64,000 bases of DNA. Source: Chloroflexus aurantiacus J-10-fl. GTDB taxonomy: Bacteria > Chloroflexota > Chloroflexia > Chloroflexales > Chloroflexaceae. The notes below the pieces were generated by a model, which did not search any database, had not been told where the DNA came from, and saw only the letters and a program-made list of their open reading frames with translations. A program made the translations under genes and the position numbers. Below are positions 3,340-62,755 of this stretch, one piece after another (positions within the stretch are counted from its first letter, which is position 1; each line of letters begins with the position of its first letter). The DNA lies in NCBI RefSeq assembly GCF_000018865.1, contig NC_010175.1, forward strand, positions 3,596,001-3,660,000, read 5' to 3'.

Positions 3340-3635
3340 GATAACGGCGATGACGGGGACGAGTAGCTATCGCCAGCTCTTCAGCGAGCCTGGGGCGGTG
3401 TGAGCCGGGTAGAAGCAGCGATAGTGAACATCACCCCTGAGCTGGCAGGTGAACCGCGTGATGGTTTCGTCCGCGCAGTAACCGCGCCCGGAACGCCCAC
3501 CGTTAGCGGGGCAGAGTGTTGATCGACACTCGCAAAGTGCGGTGCTTAGTGGCAGGCGCCACAGCATCGAATTGGGGTGGTACCGCGGGGTTAATCTGCC
3601 TCGTCCCCTGTTGGGGACGGGGCTTTTGGTTTGGT
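3340..3635 (+). promoter_or_regulatory. T-box riboswitch leader of ileS
   Basis: A tRNA-sensing leader directly upstream of the isoleucyl-tRNA synthetase gene. The conserved T-box core GGGGTGGTACCGCGG is at 3574-3588. Upstream, the stem I region carries the expected AGCGAGCC..GGTGTGAGCC pattern, and TATCGC/GCGATA close the specifier loop. The loop contains ATC at 3430-3432, an isoleucine codon, matching the downstream gene. A terminator hairpin follows the T-box. Known logic: uncharged tRNA-Ile pairs with specifier and T-box and stabilises the antiterminator, so ileS is expressed when isoleucyl-tRNA is short. The 5' boundary is approximate. Confidence 0.93.
3602..3627 (+). terminator. Regulated terminator hairpin of the ileS T-box
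   Basis: CGTCCCC and GGGGACG form a 7-bp stem with loop TGTT, followed by GGGGCTTTT. It overlaps the 3' half of the likely antiterminator, as expected for a transcription-attenuating T-box. The T-run is short, so some translational control cannot be excluded. Confidence 0.75.
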
Positions 3636-13135: not shown

Positions 13136-13670
13136 GTAGGGGCACGGTATGCCGTGCCCCGACAATCCGGCGACGTACACGTTGTTCGTGTGGCCGGTGT
13201 GAGACGTGCCCGGCGTTGAGGATGGTGGCTGCGGTAGGGTGGCTGCCACACGCCAGATGTGGTGATATGTTATCGGGCGTGGAAGACGGTCGTTCCAGGT
13301 GTCGCAGCGTTCTCAGGTGGGCCACCAGCGGGTAGTAGGGGCGACGCATGCGTCGCCCCTACTGGCGTTCAAAGAATCCGTTCGGTGTGGCGGAGGGGCA
13401 CGGCATGCCGTACCCCGACAATCCGGCGACGTACACGTTGTTCGTGTTGTTGTGAGACGTGCCCGGCGTTGAGGACGGTGGCTGCGGTAGGGTGGCTGCC
13501 ACACGCCAGATGTGGTGATATGTTACCGGGCGTGGAAGGCGGTTGTGCCAGGTGCCACAGCGTTCTCAGGTGGGCCGCCAGCGGGTGGTAGGGGCGACGC
13601 ATGCGTCGCCCCTACCGGCGTCCAAAGAATCCGTTCGGTGTGACGTAGGGGCACGGCATGCCGTGCCCCC
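13136..13670. repeat. Two tandem copies of a ~255-bp palindrome-rich repeat
   Basis: A unit beginning with a GGGGCACGGCATGCCGT.. hairpin followed by GACAATCCGGCGAC recurs after 256 bases (13161 and 13417). Within each unit a GTAGGGGCGACGC..GCCCCTAC hairpin recurs after 253 bases (13335-13362 and 13588-13615). A third start is truncated at 13645-13670. No conserved coding frame. It lies just upstream of the defence island. The remaining gap to 13807 has a GCCGC-TTCAG-GCGGC hairpin near 13698. Confidence 0.85.
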
Positions 13671-26213: not shown

Positions 26214-26405
26214 TCCCCCCGCTGGGGGGAGGAATTGGGGGGGTATTTCCCCGCTGGGAGGAGGAATTGGGGGGTATTCCCCCGCTGGGGGGAGGAATTG
26301 GGGGGGTATTCCCCCGCTGGGGGGAGGAATTGGGGGGTATTCCCCCGCTGGGGGGAGGAATTGGGGGGGTATTCCCCCGCTGGGGGGAGGAGTTGGGGGG
26401 TATAC
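26214..26405. repeat. Six G-rich tandem repeats of 31-32 bp after the defence operon
   Basis: The unit GCTGGGGGGAGGAATTGGGG.. starts at 26221, 26253, 26284, 26316, 26347 and 26379, alternating 32 and 31 bases because the second G-run alternates seven and six. Each unit has CCCCC-GCT-GGGGG hairpin arms and runs of four or more G. A GC hairpin CCCGCCCC..GGGGCGGG ends the array near 26430. There are no unique spacers, so it is not CRISPR. Frames reading through it are artefacts. Confidence 0.9.
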
Positions 26406-26493
26406 TCCCGCCCCCAGCGGGGGCGGGCTGGGGTGGGGGTGATCCCTCACCTCCCCATTCCCCACTCCCCCCCCACCATTCCGCAAAGTGGGA

Positions 26494-41912: not shown

Positions 41913-42079
41913 GTGTATTTCCTCACCTTGTGACAGGTTGAATATGGTGCATCCAGGGCATACCCGTCTCCTAACCATGCCTGATCCCGATTATAGCAGA
42001 TGGTAGAAGGGTGTTCAACTGAGGCTTTCCCTTCTTATATCAAATCTGGTGTATACGGAAGCCGCTCCAGCCCTGCCAG

Positions 42080-42290
42080 CACGTGCTGGATGAATTGCCT
42101 GTCCCGCTCGTCGGGCACGTGTCGCGAAGTTTGGAGTGCGGCAGCCATGCTGCCGCACCAGCCGCGCTTACGACCCAGCGCGTGGCCCACCGTTCCCCAT
42201 CCTGGTCATGGGGATGCAGGATGTGCTCGTTTCGATCATCGAGTCGGTCAGGCATGAATACGCTACCTGCGCGTAGACGTTTGGTTGTAC
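42080..42290. repeat. Degenerate copy (A) of the MITE-like intergenic repeat
   Basis: Carries the hairpin TGCGGCAGC..GCTGCCGCA at 42137-42157 and the shared downstream text (GGGGATGCAGGATGTGCTCG, GAGTCGGTCAGGCATGAAT, CGTAGACGTTT) seen in the copies at 47.5, 50.9 and 54.5 kb. Its inverted ends are not clear. The gap from 41913 to 42866 holds no convincing gene; both long open frames here run through repeats. Confidence 0.75.
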
Positions 42291-42437
42291 CAGGTTCGTG
42301 CCTGCGCACCAGCAGTCACAGCCAGCATCTAACGGCGGTAGAGAGGAACGCCTCCACGCAGGCTGGAAGCCTGCGCCACGGGGAGTGCTTGCAGCCCAGC
42401 CTAACGCAGCGTGACATGTGGGTAATGCATAGCCCTG

Positions 42438-42580
42438 GGAGCGCGAGCCTCCGGCTCGCCCAACTCCGACACCCTGGGAGCGCGAGCCTCCGGCTCGCCC
42501 AGCTCCGGTACCCTGGGAGCGCGAGCCTCCGGCTCGCCCAGCTCCGGTACCCTGGGAGCGCGAGCCTCCGGCTCGCCCCC
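42438..42580. repeat. Four tandem copies of a 39-bp palindromic repeat
   Basis: GCGCGAGCCTCCGGCTCGCC starts at 42441, 42480, 42519 and 42558, an exact 39-base period. Each copy is the CTGGGAGCGCGAGCC..GGCTCGC hairpin also found at 3115 and in the methylase gene. A fixed spacer (CAGCTCCGGTACC or a near variant) lies between copies. Confidence 0.92.
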
Positions 42581-42866
42581 TCCGACCCGCCCCCAACGGG
42601 GTTTGAGGTGGTGATGCATCGCACCCTGAATGCGGACGCACCAGACAACCCTCTCGTACTGCGGTGACCATTGATGTAGTTAGCAGATGGCGCACCTGGC
42701 CGCAATGCAGCGCAGGGATGCCTCTTGAACGTGGGCATCGTTGGGAAAGAGATTGGATCACTCACCTGATGTGGATACCGTTCGCGCTCGCAGGTAAACC
42801 TTTGTGCCCACCGCACATTGCACCGGACGGGCAGCGTATAAGACACTCCAACCTGCCGCTTAACCC

Positions 42867-47519: not shown

Positions 47520-47766
47520 GTCCTGTTGGCAGAGAGTAGCTCCGTTTGTGCCATTACGCGCTGGATGGTTGCTTTGTCCGCTCGTCATGCGCGTGTTGCG
47601 GCGTTTGGAGTGCGGCAGCATGGCTACCGCAGCAGCCGTGCTCGCTGTCCGGCGCGTGGTACGCCGTTGCCCCCACTGGTCACGGGGATGCTGGATGTGC
47701 TCGTTACGATCATGGGGTTGGTCAGCAATGAGATAACTCCTGACAGCCGTTTTCTGAAAGAGGTTC
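47520..47766. repeat. Degenerate copy (B) of the MITE-like intergenic repeat
   Basis: Shares the core hairpin (TGCGGCAGC..GCTACCGCA, 47611-47631, one mismatch), the CGTCATGCGCGTGTTGC and GGGGATGCTGGATGTGCTCG segments, and the right end TGAAAGAGGTTC (47755-47766). A second hairpin variant with wobble pairs, TGCGGAGGC..GCTTCTGCA, lies upstream at about 47399-47420. The left end is not found. The rest of the 1-kb gap between spoVS and the DUF294 gene has no convincing gene. Confidence 0.75.
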
Positions 47767-50783: not shown

Positions 50784-50877
50784 GCACATCTGTGGCTGGT
50801 CGTCGCTGGGTGTGTGTTTAGTTGATAGTCTGACAATGGCGATGCCAGTGGTGTTGCCAGGCGAGAGCTGTGCAAGA

Positions 50878-51224
50878 GAACTTATTTCATAGAAGCCGTG
50901 CTATCGTGCTACGAGACCGTCACTCAGGCGCACACGTGCTTGCCAATCACCAGCGATAGCCTACCCTGCTCTTGGCCTGCTGGCAGAGAGCAGCTCCAAC
51001 CGTACCATCACGCGCTGGATGGGTTGCCTTACCCGCTCGTCATGCGCGTGTCGCAGAGTTTGGAGTGCGGCAGCCATGCTGCCGCAGCAGCCGTACACAC
51101 GATCCGGCGCGTGGTATGCCGTTGACCATACTGGTCACGGGGATACTGGATGTGCTCGTTACCATTAGAGAGTCGGTCAGAGAGGTATTAGATAACTTCT
51201 CGTAAGCGTTTTTGAGATAGGTTC
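50878..51224. mobile_element. MITE-like element, copy C, with 12-bp inverted ends
   Basis: A 347-bp element. Left end GAACTTATTTCA (50878-50889) and right end TGAGATAGGTTC (51213-51224) are inverted repeats matching at 10 of 12 positions. The centre holds the hairpin TGCGGCAGC..GCTGCCGCA (51066-51086). Copy D shares the whole layout. No coding frame is conserved between copies and no target duplication is certain. It lies between the exonuclease and the SLC13 permease; its right end is 10 bases before that start codon and may supply the leader. Confidence 0.8.
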
Positions 51225-51234
51225 GAGCCAGCTC

Positions 51235-53076
51235 ATGACATTTGACATCATTCTGGTCTTTTCCATCCTGCTCTGCGTGATTGTCCTTTTCACCACTGAT
51301 CGAATCCGGATCGATCTCGTAGCAGTGCTCGGTATGCTTGCACTGATGCTCGGTGGGATTCTGACCCCGGCTGAAGCAGTCGCCGGTTTTGGTGATACGA
51401 CGGTCATATTGATTGCGGCATTGATGATTGTTGGTGATGGGTTACTTCAGACCGGGGTTGCGGCCTGGATTGGGAATAAACTCGGTAGTATCGCCGGGCA
51501 GAGTGAGCGCCGGATGCTGGTAACTTTGATGGTTCCGGTTGCGTTCCTGTCGGCGTTTATCAGCTCGACCGGTACCGTGGCAATTATGATTCCGGTGGCG
51601 CTGAGTCTGGCTCGCCGGGCAGGGATTAGCCCTGCCCGCCTGCTGTTACCGCTCGCCTATGCTGCGCTCACCGGTGGTATGTTGACGTTGATCGGAACGC
51701 CACCCAATCTGATTGCGGCAGAGGCATTGGTCAGTGCCGGGCGGCCACCTCTCGGCTTTTTCAGCTTTACGCCAATTGGGATGACCATCCTGGTCATGAT
51801 CACGCTCACCGTGGCCTGGTTTGGCCACTGGCTGTTACCGGTGCGCGATGTACCGGTGTCAGAAGTGGAGCGGGGGCCAACCCTGGCCGAACTGGCTGCT
51901 GACTATTTCCTGACCAAAGACCTTGTGCAGGTACGGGTGTTAGCTGATTCGCCACTGGCCGGACACACGCTGTCTGAACTGCGGCTCCAGAATCGCTACG
52001 GTATTACGGTTGTTGGGGTACGACGCTGGCCTGGATCACGGCCAGAACCGGGGTCACCGCGGGCCGTTACGTCGGCAACGCGGATTCTGGCAGGTGATCT
52101 TCTCGATGTGATAGGCGACGAAGGCGCAATCGAACGATTTTGCCGCCAGGAGGGAGTTGTTGTCCAGTCCCTATCGTCGAGTCTTCCATTCGGGCCAGAT
52201 CTTCACATCATGGAAGTGGCATTAACACCGCGCTCGCGCTTTGAAGGGCAGACTATTGCCAGGGCGGAATTATGTCAGCTTTTCGGTGTGACCGTGTTGG
52301 GGGTACGACGTCTCGGTCAGCCATTTCAAGGCGATCTTGTCAACGAGCCGTTACGCTTCGGTGATACGCTGCTGGTGGCAGGTGCTCCTGATCAATTACA
52401 GGAAATTGTTCGGACACAGCAAACCGCTGGCGATCTGGTGGTGGTCGCCTTCCCACGCGATATGGCAATAACCGGTCATCGGCTTGATTGGCGTTCCTGG
52501 ACGGCAATGACCATCATGATCCTCATGTTGATCGTTATGGCCGCCGGTTGGTTGCCGGTTGTGACCGCCGCCTTGCTGGCCGCAGTCGCCATGGTGTTGA
52601 GCGGTTGCGTGCCGCTCAGTGGGGTCTATCGTCGACTCAACTGGGAGAGTCTGGTCCTGATTGCTGCGATGCTGCCGATGGCAACTGCGCTCAAGAAGAC
52701 TGGCGGGGCAGCATTCATCGCTGAACAACTGGTCAGCGTGCTGGGTGACTTTTCACCATTGGTTGTGCTGGCCGGTATCTTCATCGTTACCAGCCTGTTG
52801 AGCCAGTTCATCTCGAATACGGCGACTGCCGTCCTCATTATGCCGATTGCCCTCGGCGTTGCCGATCAATTGACCCTGGCCCCCGAACCTCTGTTGATCA
52901 CGGCAGCACTTGCGGCCTCGACCGCCTTCGCTACCCCGATTGCTTCCCCGGTGAACACGTTGGTGCTGGCACCCGGCGAATATCGCTTTATTGACTATGT
53001 CCGAGCTGGTGTCCCGCTGCAATTGCTCGTGATGGTGATTTGTCTGATCCTGGTGCCGGTCTTCTTTCCGTGGTAA
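51235..53076 (+). CDS. SLC13/DASS-type permease with two TrkA-C domains
   Basis: A 613-residue transporter. Two blocks of membrane helices (about 1-195 and 420-613) carry the SLC13-like signatures SSTGTVAIMIPVALSLARR with TLIGTPPNLI, and FISNTATAVLIMPIAL with ATPIASPVNTLV. Between them, two RCK_C/TrkA-C domains (about 215-305 and 310-395) may sense a ligand. Such proteins are predicted sodium/anion (sulfate or dicarboxylate) symporters; substrate unproven. Confidence 0.9.
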   Translation: MTFDIILVFSILLCVIVLFTTDRIRIDLVAVLGMLALMLGGILTPAEAVAGFGDTTVILIAALMIVGDGLLQTGVAAWIGNKLGSIAGQSERRMLVTLMVPVAFLSAFISSTGTVAIMIPVALSLARRAGISPARLLLPLAYAALTGGMLTLIGTPPNLIAAEALVSAGRPPLGFFSFTPIGMTILVMITLTVAWFGHWLLPVRDVPVSEVERGPTLAELAADYFLTKDLVQVRVLADSPLAGHTLSELRLQNRYGITVVGVRRWPGSRPEPGSPRAVTSATRILAGDLLDVIGDEGAIERFCRQEGVVVQSLSSSLPFGPDLHIMEVALTPRSRFEGQTIARAELCQLFGVTVLGVRRLGQPFQGDLVNEPLRFGDTLLVAGAPDQLQEIVRTQQTAGDLVVVAFPRDMAITGHRLDWRSWTAMTIMILMLIVMAAGWLPVVTAALLAAVAMVLSGCVPLSGVYRRLNWESLVLIAAMLPMATALKKTGGAAFIAEQLVSVLGDFSPLVVLAGIFIVTSLLSQFISNTATAVLIMPIALGVADQLTLAPEPLLITAALAASTAFATPIASPVNTLVLAPGEYRFIDYVRAGVPLQLLVMVICLILVPVFFPW

Positions 53077-53082
53077 TGTACG

Positions 53083-54492
53083 CTACCAGATTCCGGCCAT
53101 CTCCCACACCCGTCCGGCAAGGAGATCAACCGCAGCCTCGTCGGCACAAATCGCAATACCCGTGCTGTCAGGGCGGGTTGGGTAGATACGACTGGTGATC
53201 GAACGGCGTTCGTTGGCAAAGACTTCAATCAACGAGGCATCAAGAAAGATGCGCAGCACTAACGGCTCATCGTTGTGCAGAGTAAGGGGGGCGTGGTGAG
53301 CGTCACGCCAGACATCACCGGCCAGACTCGACCGGCGCCGGTCGAGGGTGAGGGTTGCGGTTCGGCTGTTGTAGCGCAAAACGGTCGCTTCGCTGCCGTC
53401 GGGGCTGGCCCGCAGCATGACGGTGCACGTTCCATGCCGTGGTGGGCGCAGGATTAACTCTACCTCAAGCTGCGCACCGTGGACGGGCAGCCAGTGGATG
53501 TCGTGCGGCATGACCCGCGTTGATGGGATAACGATCTCGTCTTGACGTAACTGCTGGACTTCGTTCACCGGCAATGTTACGATCTGACCATCATCGGCTA
53601 TCTTCACCTCGCGTGGCAGCGTCATCACCCCGGCCCAACCTGCCGCTACAATGGACTCCTCGCTTCGTCCCTCCATTGACCAGGCAAACATGATGCGTCG
53701 TCCATCGCGGATCGGCATGGTTTGCGGGGCGTAGAAATGAGCGTCGCCATAATCCAGTTTGTGGGTTGTATGCGGGACAAAGCGGCCATCCCGATACGCG
53801 CCGATCATCGCAATCGTGTAGTATGGTCGTCGATCCCAGGCCGAGCAGACGAGCACCTGCTGGTCGCCTAGCGCGAAAAAGTCTGGACACTCCCAGAGCA
53901 AACCCGTCCAGACCGGATCGAACTGACCGGCATCACCGATCAAGAGTGGGCCTGCGTATTCCCAGTGTCGTAAATCGGGCGAGCGGTAGAGCAAGACGGT
54001 ACCACCCTGACCACGAATGCCCGAACCGATCAGCATGTGCCAGACTCCCTGTTCTTGCCAGACAGTATGGTCGCGAAAGCCAAGCAGATCGAGTTCCGGC
54101 GGTGGTGCAGCAATGATCGGCTCTGGCCACTTCTGCCAGGTTTGTAAACCATCGTGACTGACTGCCAGGCACGGTTGTTGTACTTCAGGCAATCGAAAGC
54201 CGGTGTAGATCAGGGTGGGTGTGCCGTGGTCATTAACGGCACAGCCCGACCAGCAACCATCAGCATCAGCACCACCTGGCGTTGGTGAGAGGGCAATCGG
54301 TTGATGTTGCCAGTGAATTAGATCGTGACTGGTTGCGTGACCCCAATGGATATGGCGATGATATGCGCCGGCGGGGTTGTACTGATAAAACAAGTGAAAC
54401 GTGTCTTCCCATTGAATAAGCCCATTTGGGTCGTTCATCCAGTTTGCCGGCGGCAAAAAGTGGTAACGCGGACGTTGTTGAGCGCCTGCCAT
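53083..54492 (-). CDS. Glycoside hydrolase family 32 beta-fructosidase
   Basis: A 469-residue sucrose- or fructan-hydrolysing enzyme. ATG at 54492 after AAGGTGAT. The nucleophile motif is WMNDPNG (near residue 20), the acid/base motif WECPDFF, and the middle RDP motif is altered to FRDH. A beta-sandwich domain ends the protein. No signal peptide is present, so it should act in the cytoplasm on sugar imported by the ABC system encoded just upstream. Element D separates it from the permease genes. Confidence 0.93.
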   Translation of the reverse strand: MAGAQQRPRYHFLPPANWMNDPNGLIQWEDTFHLFYQYNPAGAYHRHIHWGHATSHDLIHWQHQPIALSPTPGGADADGCWSGCAVNDHGTPTLIYTGFRLPEVQQPCLAVSHDGLQTWQKWPEPIIAAPPPELDLLGFRDHTVWQEQGVWHMLIGSGIRGQGGTVLLYRSPDLRHWEYAGPLLIGDAGQFDPVWTGLLWECPDFFALGDQQVLVCSAWDRRPYYTIAMIGAYRDGRFVPHTTHKLDYGDAHFYAPQTMPIRDGRRIMFAWSMEGRSEESIVAAGWAGVMTLPREVKIADDGQIVTLPVNEVQQLRQDEIVIPSTRVMPHDIHWLPVHGAQLEVELILRPPRHGTCTVMLRASPDGSEATVLRYNSRTATLTLDRRRSSLAGDVWRDAHHAPLTLHNDEPLVLRIFLDASLIEVFANERRSITSRIYPTRPDSTGIAICADEAAVDLLAGRVWEMAGIW

Positions 54493-54520
54493 AGGATCAC
54501 CTTCACCATGGAGATTGTCG

Positions 54521-54882
54521 GAACTTATTTCAGAAAGGCTATGCAGTCGTGCTCCCAGCCCATCACCCAGGTGCATGAACGTTTACCAATCGCCAACGCC
54601 AGCATATCCCGCTCCCAGGCTGCCGGTATGGCAGCGAGGAGGGCTGCCGACCATCTGCGGTGCCATCACACGCTGGATGGTTGTCTTGCCCGCGCATCAT
54701 GCGCAAATCGTGGCGTTTGGAGTGCGGCAGCCATGCTGCCGCACCAACCGTGCTTCGTGCCATGCGCGTGTCACGCGGTTGACCCTGCTGGTTACGGCGA
54801 TGCTGTGGGTGCTCGTCACGATCATCGAGTCTGTCAGGAATGAATGAGATACCTTCTCGTAGACGTTTTTTGAAATAGATTC
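54521..54882. mobile_element. MITE-like element, copy D, inside the sugar operon
   Basis: A 362-bp element with left end GAACTTATTTCA (identical to copy C) and right end TGAAATAGATTC, inverted repeats matching at 10 of 12 positions. The core hairpin is at 54723-54743. It sits between the second permease gene (stop at 54897) and the GH32 gene (start at 54492), so operon transcripts would run through it. Confidence 0.8.
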
Positions 54883-59594: not shown

Positions 59595-60830
59595 GAGCTG
59601 ATTAATCACCTGCCAGATTGGCTACCTCTCCCGCTCAGTGATGGGCGTGTCGTGGAGTTTGGAGTGCGGAAGCCATGCTTCCAATCCCACTGTGCTCGCT
59701 GGCAGGTGTGTGTTGTGCCGGTCACCCTGCTGGTCGCAGGGACGACGTGCGCCCTCGTCATGGTCATCTCGCCTGTTAATGATGCGTGCAATGACTTCAG
59801 TACTCTCGCTGAAATGACGCGCTTACCCTGTCAGTGCTTCCTACCGGACGCCACACGGTGTGCAGAAGCCAGGCTTCCGCACCAATCCGGCTGATTATCG
59901 TTCGTATGCATAGCACTTCAGCCCGTATGTTGCCGATGAATGGTCGGTAGCCGCTACACTATCGTGAGCGAGCTGTCGGCATGGATGCTCTTTCCCGATC
60001 ATCCTATCGTTAGGATGGATGAGATGTCTGTTGGGCAACGGTAGCAATACGTTCAGCATCATTCCATCTTTGTTGATGTGCGAGCTAACTTTGCCGTACC
60101 ACAGATTTGAACAGGGGTTGTTTCGTTATAATACCAGACTTGTCAATAGTTGCCAAAGGGGACGAACCACGCTGCACCGTCGGCAGCACAGGATGTCAGC
60201 AGCATAGTTGCCCTCCACTCGCAGTGCCTGGTGATGATTGGCGTCGATTGTCAGCATTGAGAGGAGTGTACGACAGTACGCTCTCTGCGTCCTGCTGGGC
60301 TATGTCTGTATGTATGAAACATTCCCCATCTGGCGGTTCTGACCGCATAGCGTAGGGGCAGTGGGCAGTGAAACCTGCACCAGGGTATCTGATAATTTAC
60401 TCACTGTGGTGTTGTCTCTTCTACATGGTGAGGCAAAGATAGATGATATGCACCGTGTAGCGCAATACTGGCGCTTGCCCTACACGGTGCTGAGGCAAAC
60501 CCTACTTTGCGAGGTTATGGCAACTCACGTTGCCACCTATGCTGTGAGCAGGCGACGGAAGCTGACTATCAGAATGAACAGCACGACGTTACCCTCAACA
60601 CCGTATGGCGTACCGCATAACGATGTAGGGAGCAGCCAGTTCCTATGAACGCATTTCGTCATACCTCATGGTAGCAACCCGGATTACACCCATCCTCTAT
60701 GCCTCTGTGGTGATAAAGGTAGCAACCTGGGTTATGGTATCCGTAGTGAAGAACGTACAAACACTGCACGCTATCTCACCACTGGCGTGGCGCAATTGAC
60801 GGTCGCCACGCCAGCAGGTGGTTATTGCCG
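59595..60830. other. 1.2-kb gap with degenerate repeats and one hairpin cassette
   Basis: No supported gene. A degenerate repeat copy (E) lies at about 59610-59790 with the variant hairpin TGCGGAAGC..GCTTCC (59665-59685); another variant, TGCAGAAGC..GCTTCCGCA, is near 59859-59881. At 60450-60490 GCACCGTGTAG and CTACACGGTGC form a perfect 11-bp stem, and TGAGGCAAA occurs as a direct repeat at 60429-60437 and 60491-60499. The remainder shows nothing clear. Confidence 0.6.
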
Positions 60831-62299: not shown

Positions 62300-62755
62300 G
62301 CAAGCACAACCCGTGCCGCAGAGTTCGGCGTACAACAGCCATGCTGCCGCACAGCCATCGCTCAGAGGTGCGGCCACCCGCAGCACCCCCTGCCTCACCA
62401 GTATGGAGTACAGCAGCCACCGCGCCTGTGCCAGATGCGTCTCGTACCGCAGCACGACCCGTGTCGCGAAGTTTGGAGTACAACAGCCATGCTGCCGCGC
62501 AGCCATCGCTCGGAGATACGCGGCCACCCGCAGCGCTAACCCCTGCCTCACCGGTATGGAGTGCAGCATCCACCGCGCCCGTTGCCAGATGCGTCTCGTA
62601 TCGCAGCACGACCCGTGTTGCGAAGTTTGGAGTGCGGCAGCCATGCTGCCGCGTAGCCATCGCTTGGAGATACGCGGCCACCCGCAGCGCCTACCCCTGC
62701 CTCACCGGTATGGAGTACAGCTTCCACCGCGCCTGTTACCAGATACGTGTCGTAA
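62300..62755. repeat. Three tandem ~150-bp repeats carrying the GCCATGCTGCCGC hairpin
   Basis: GCCATGCTGCCGC begins at 62338, 62486 and 62640 (spacing 148 and 154). Shared text includes GCGGCCACCCGCAGC, CCTGCCTCACC, ATGGAGT and CCAGATGCGTCTCGTA. The open frames that cross it on both strands reflect the repeat period and are not supported as genes. The gap 61881-62890 otherwise holds only the small frame near 62.0 kb and the palindromes. Confidence 0.85.

Follow-up and report, generated by a model that had tools for sequence, protein, structure and literature searches.

Two repeats in the window, the 64,000-base stretch of DNA analysed here (genome bases 3,596,001-3,660,000 of a single contig of 5,258,541 bp), are copies of a real MITE family that is ordinary in kind and moderately interesting in its unusual REP-bearing composite build. 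We hold with considerable confidence that the two repeats, copies C and D, are MITE copies whose ends are recognised in trans by an IS5-family transposase, which inserts them at TA, and that a REP hairpin was captured before the family spread. In the proposed mechanism, the transposase would recognise the terminal inverted repeats that enclose the non-coding DNA, and would insert the element at TA and duplicate both bases. A RAYT-linked REP-type hairpin would have been captured in the middle of the MITE before the dispersal of the family, as is suggested by its presence in nearly all copies, and carried along since. C and D were very probably mobilised by an insertion sequence (IS) present in six copies in the same genome. 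The observations comprise the copies, their ends, the flanking TA, empty sites, an IS with the same ends, and a RAYT gene that has the same hairpins all around it. From the shared ends, the TA dinucleotides, and the empty sites, we infer that the MITE transposes and that an IS5-type transposase acts on its ends in trans.

Copies of the element in the window

Copies C (347 bp, positions 50878..51224) and D (362 bp, positions 54521..54882) are full long-form MITEs on the forward strand. They align end to end (72%, E 6e-57) and have an identical start, GAACTTATTTCA, which forms the left terminal inverted repeat (50878..50889 in C and 54521..54532 in D, forward strand), so they constitute one repeat with common ends, central hairpin, and layout, as the preliminary description proposed. 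The outer right terminal inverted repeats, on the reverse strand, are located at 51208..51224 in C and 54866..54882 in D, and match the IS end in 15 and 14 of 17 bases, respectively, including the flanking dinucleotide. C also contains an inner right end, ATTAGATAACTTC (51187..51199, reverse strand), which is the terminus of a short form of the element in other copies. The REP-type hairpin occupies the centre of each element on the forward strand, at 51062..51085 in C (GGAGTGCGGCAGCCATGCTGCCGC) and 54719..54742 in D. The absence of an intact TA pair at both copies counts against their assignment: C is flanked by GA on both sides (50876-50877 and 51225-51226), which may be a 2-bp duplication or a decayed TA, and D by CG and AG, with no intact duplication.

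The right ends of C (TGAGATAGGTTC, 51213-51224), D (TGAAATAGATTC, 54871-54882), and copy B (TGAAAGAGGTTC, 47755-47766) are each the inverted repeat of GAACTTATTTCA with two mismatches, which agrees with the earlier claims that the right ends fit one consensus and that B keeps its right end. B (47540..47766, forward strand) is left-truncated; its right end is followed by TA, and its hairpin loop is inverted (CATGG). Copies A and E had been regarded as decayed members of the family. This holds for E, an internal fragment without ends (59605..59799, forward strand), and fails for A, probably the copy at 42072..42432 (approximate ends, forward strand), which is a left-truncated member of a second MITE-like family. 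It has the central, REP-bearing ~230 bp in common with C and D and differs in the right arm and ends, with the right end TGTGGGTAATGCATAG.

The C/D alignment, together with shuffle tests of the core and ends, excludes chance as the origin of the similarity: a 28-nt core occurs four times and was absent from 100 shuffles, and eight ends with at most two mismatches were seen against 2.1 expected from shuffles. The lack of coding capacity noted previously was confirmed, since all six frames of C and D contain stops and none is open throughout (the longest open stretch has 108 codons). Both copies are intergenic. C is located between exonuclease-like and permease-like neighbours, and D between GH32-like and ABC-permease-like neighbours, with the names read from the open reading frames. 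An Rfam search gave no match at any copy.

The family in the genome, its insertion sites, and a partner insertion sequence

The genome-wide search that had been suggested earlier yielded many further copies with the same ends. Copy D has 62 matches in its own genome, and left ends with up to three mismatches occur 93 times, whereas the reversed control occurs 0 times. A family model run with nhmmer on a 32% sample (1.664 Mb, made up of the window and 80 stretches of 20 kb at even spacing) gave 177 hits to the family and its relatives, which cover 1.9% of the sample. The left end is contained in 32 of these hits, corresponding to an extrapolated ~101 (about 100) copies genome-wide, in agreement with the 93 left-end pattern matches.

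The MITE consensus starts with GAACTTATTTCATAAAA and ends with TTTTTTGAAATAGGTTC, with TA on either side. Elements are short and non-coding, have a length of 279-374 bp, and differ by many small indels. The long form extends to the outer right end (TTTTTTGAAATAGGTTC, then TA), the short form stops at the inner right end (GAGATAACTTC, then TA), and the third is a deletion form; the sizes are about 360 bp, and also ~337 bp and ~279 bp. TA precedes the GAAC left end in 27 of 58 copies, whereas its share among dinucleotides in general is 3.4%; the remaining left flanks are mostly one base away from TA. Most outer right ends are followed by TA, in a tally that misassigned the right-end dinucleotides of L035 and L042. 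The elements have terminal inverted repeats, and their target-site duplication is indicated by the TA enrichment and by ungapped empty sites for two copies. Dispersed copies remain homologous beyond the hairpin, up to the inverted ends and TA.

One of the two copies, at 4,329,027, resides within another high-copy repeat. Its removal together with one TA leaves a junction that has neither a gap nor an extra base relative to most uninterrupted paralogues; six bases near the junction are missing relative to the paralogues. The copy at 5,197,370 likewise gives an ungapped single-TA junction when compared with two paralogous sequences. The gap orthologous to that of C measures 121 bp in congener G003 and 451 bp here, or ~102 bp after subtraction of the element; among the best five congener permease matches, the exonuclease gene adjoins only in G003. 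At the D site, the orthologous gaps in six congeners are 152-412 bp long and all lack the MITE; five of the six hold REP-like hairpins of their own type. The comparison for empty sites called for in the preliminary description thus found both paralogous and orthologous ones, and these, with the one at C among them, support an insertion that duplicates 2 bp. Insertion at TA is established at the level of sequence comparison.

The median pairwise identity among the MITE copies is 76.5%, and the copies are old on average, a point against the proposed mobilisation. Spread was not only ancient, because two dispersed copies at unrelated sites are 97.6% identical. When the congeners were searched with the MITE, the central hairpin was the only part matched, without any of the body. 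Some copies are organized into head-to-tail arrays with junctions at TA. In these arrays, either the left end abuts an internal GC-TA, or the outer right end meets an internal site at TA. Such arrangements would fit a history in which the element inserted itself at an internal TA and then underwent unequal recombination.

An outside transposase had been predicted, together with a gene bounded by the same ends, and pairs of MITE-type ends ~857 bp apart led to such an element. The IS is present in six full, TA-flanked copies of 853-857 bp, which are 83-100% identical over nearly their whole length. The outer right end of the MITE agrees with the IS end in 17 of 17 bases, the left end in 15 of 17, and the inner right end in only 11 of 17. 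The transposase of the IS belongs to the IS5 family and is encoded by two overlapping frames, with PF13340 and PF01609 matched above cut-off and NF033580 above cut-off for both frames. The two overlapping frames and the TA are compatible with the IS427 group of the IS5 family, and the partner IS may be IS427-like. An A6G run at the frame junction, possibly a programmed frameshift site, is present in two IS copies (L093 and L094) and degenerate in the other four, so that few of the copies are probably active. No recognisable common sequence was detected between the ends of the MITE and the IS. Their similarity is confined to the ends, so a simple internal deletion of the present IS does not account for the MITE. 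This restriction and the poorer agreement of the inner right end speak against the proposed mobilisation. Searches of the congeners with the IS transposase gave distant matches only.

The central hairpin and a second family with the same body

The hairpin in the centre of the MITE, GGAGT followed by GCGGCAGC-CAT-GCTGCCGC, is a repeat independent of the MITE. It is a high-copy short palindrome, as REPs are, with 425 copies at up to two mismatches in the palindrome and none in the reversed control. Larger repeat bodies enclose about 70% of the hairpins in the sample (104/148), 44/148 are outside family hits of at least 100 bp, and many tandem arrays of varied period contain the hairpin. An intact RAYT gene (L070:1294-1848; genome 3878423-3878974, reverse strand) encodes a 184-aa protein that matches NF047646 (NCBIfam 'REP-associated tyrosine transposase') above cut-off. 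The gene is flanked by the palindrome on both sides, within an array of at least 16 hairpins in the same orientation (six on one side and ten on the other). Three congeners have a ~60% identical RAYT with their own versions of the hairpin beside the gene. The canonical REP tag is GTAG or GTGG (PMC2817692, PMC3733652), unpaired and 5' of the hairpin in the GTAG superfamily; here the tag is GGAG in 103 of 162 hairpins and GGCG in 27 of 162, and therefore we call the hairpin REP-type and RAYT-linked, not a GTAG REP. Another candidate, an IS200-like PF01797 match at 2054490, is interrupted by a stop, and the open reading frame there matched only a weak zinc-ribbon model, so this match was discarded. 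The identity of the hairpin as a separate repeat, the two alternative right ends, and the ~279-bp deletion form go beyond the preliminary description.

The hairpin is the most conserved window of the MITE: across 53 copies its divergence is 5.2%, compared to 15.8% for the body, and it is lower than that of the body in 49 of the 53. Selection, gene conversion among some 425 hairpins, or turnover by RAYT could each explain this homogeneity. The hairpin loop in MITE centres reads CAT in some copies and ATG in others, as though it had been inverted in situ (for example, window 47607-47630).

A second set of repeats has model positions ~137-365 in common with the first, including the hairpin and up to the first family's GGTTC, and differs in the arms. 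Its members are bounded by the terminal inverted repeats CTATGCATTACCCACA...TGTGGGTAATGCATAG. Of 42 adjacent end pairs, 8 are accompanied by flanking repeats with a length of 8-10 bp, which is 9 bp in six cases, compared to 2.4% of mispaired controls. The REP-bearing ~230-bp body is present in 19 of the 42 end pairs, and the rest enclose other cargo. Members include L140:10017-10493, L147:1826-2274, L149:5028-5507, L191:1531-1883, L202:17681-18157, and copy A in the window. No autonomous element for the CTATGCATTACCCACA ends was found in the sample. As the body occurs in both families with different ends, one cargo is framed by two unrelated end pairs.

Alternative explanations and related systems

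The evidence on the hairpin bears on two readings that give it a larger role. It is doubtful, though conceivable, that while an IS5-type DDE enzyme uses the ends to mobilise the entire MITE, RAYT acts on the central hairpin and keeps it homogeneous, the REP body having also been handed to the second family, with its other ends and 8-10-bp duplications. Two transposases may act on one element; the action of RAYT on a MITE-borne hairpin is speculation. That the hairpin itself is the mobile unit, with the body being neighbouring DNA co-amplified by RAYT or tandem duplication and the ends incidental, is very improbable. Such a process would account for the excess of hairpins over full elements (425 versus about 100) and for their conservation and varied tandem arrays, but not for homology that stops at the inverted ends and TA, for ungapped empty sites bounded by the MITE ends, or for an IS with the same ends. 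Mobilisation of the MITE by a transposase other than that of the six-copy IS is very improbable as well. Because IS630/Tc1 elements typically duplicate TA too, a partner of that type was considered; the genome contains only two DDE_3 matches, of which one is broken by a stop and the other covers just part of the profile. Neither is tied to these ends or surfaced in searches for them, whereas the IS5-type element has the same ends base for base.

The least probable reading is that of a structured RNA or regulatory sequence conserved for the host, with dispersal being secondary. The predicted folding of single strands is better than that of shuffled sequences (C as RNA, z -5.05; D as DNA, z -3.79), so effects on the transcripts of neighbours are possible, and 21 hairpin stem cells are compensated on both sides. 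However, 74 stem cells are broken, Rfam has no match at the copies, and pairing between the inverted ends, as expected for any MITE, makes up some of the fold. Furthermore, the element is absent from the orthologous sites of the congeners, whose genomes contain nothing of it but the hairpin.

The reading as a MITE mobilised in trans places the family beside known systems. The IS5-family IS (NF033580) of the same genome resembles it in the terminal inverted repeat GAACCTATTTCAAAA and the flanking TA, and differs in encoding a transposase and in having nothing in common between the ends. The bacterial MITEs Correia/NEMIS, RUP, and ERIC (PMC3733652) are likewise short, non-coding, gene-adjacent, and present in many copies, with inverted ends and a partner IS with the same ends. 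Correia and RUP are IS630-derived (PMC2817692), whereas the present MITE is tied to an IS5-family element and has a central REP-type hairpin. RAYT-associated REPs (PMC2817692, PMC3733652) are similarly high-copy palindromes with an unpaired 5' tag, a flanked RAYT gene, and species-specific versions in relatives; their GTAG/GTGG tag contrasts with GGAG/GGCG here, where larger bodies enclose most of the sampled hairpins. A MITE of Porphyromonas gingivalis also holds a second kind of repeat, which is a minisatellite (PMC4596501), whereas the present MITE holds a hairpin to which a separate transposase gene is linked. A literature search of papers available without subscription turned up none on MITEs or REPs of Chloroflexus. 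The genome offers a complete, testable set of a MITE, its probable IS, empty sites, and an overlapping REP/RAYT system. Provided that an active process maintains the hairpin in the MITE centre, REPs could be dispersed as passengers of DDE-type MITEs, a mode of spread not met in our literature text searches.

Several other repeats and an RNA were noticed. The target of one MITE copy is another high-copy repeat of ~180 bp that contains CCCATCCTCTGTGTCCTCTGTGCCTCT and occurs at window 60560-60733, L153:12524-12707, L157:11061-11242, and many other sites. Three tandem copies of a 154-bp unit with a REP-type hairpin are located at window 62303-62754. Further tandem repeats in the window are at 13138-13669 (253 bp, containing decayed hairpins), 26216-26411 (32/63 bp), and 42433-42586 (39 bp). 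A T-box leader RNA scores above the Rfam gathering score at window 3341-3611, away from the MITE copies.
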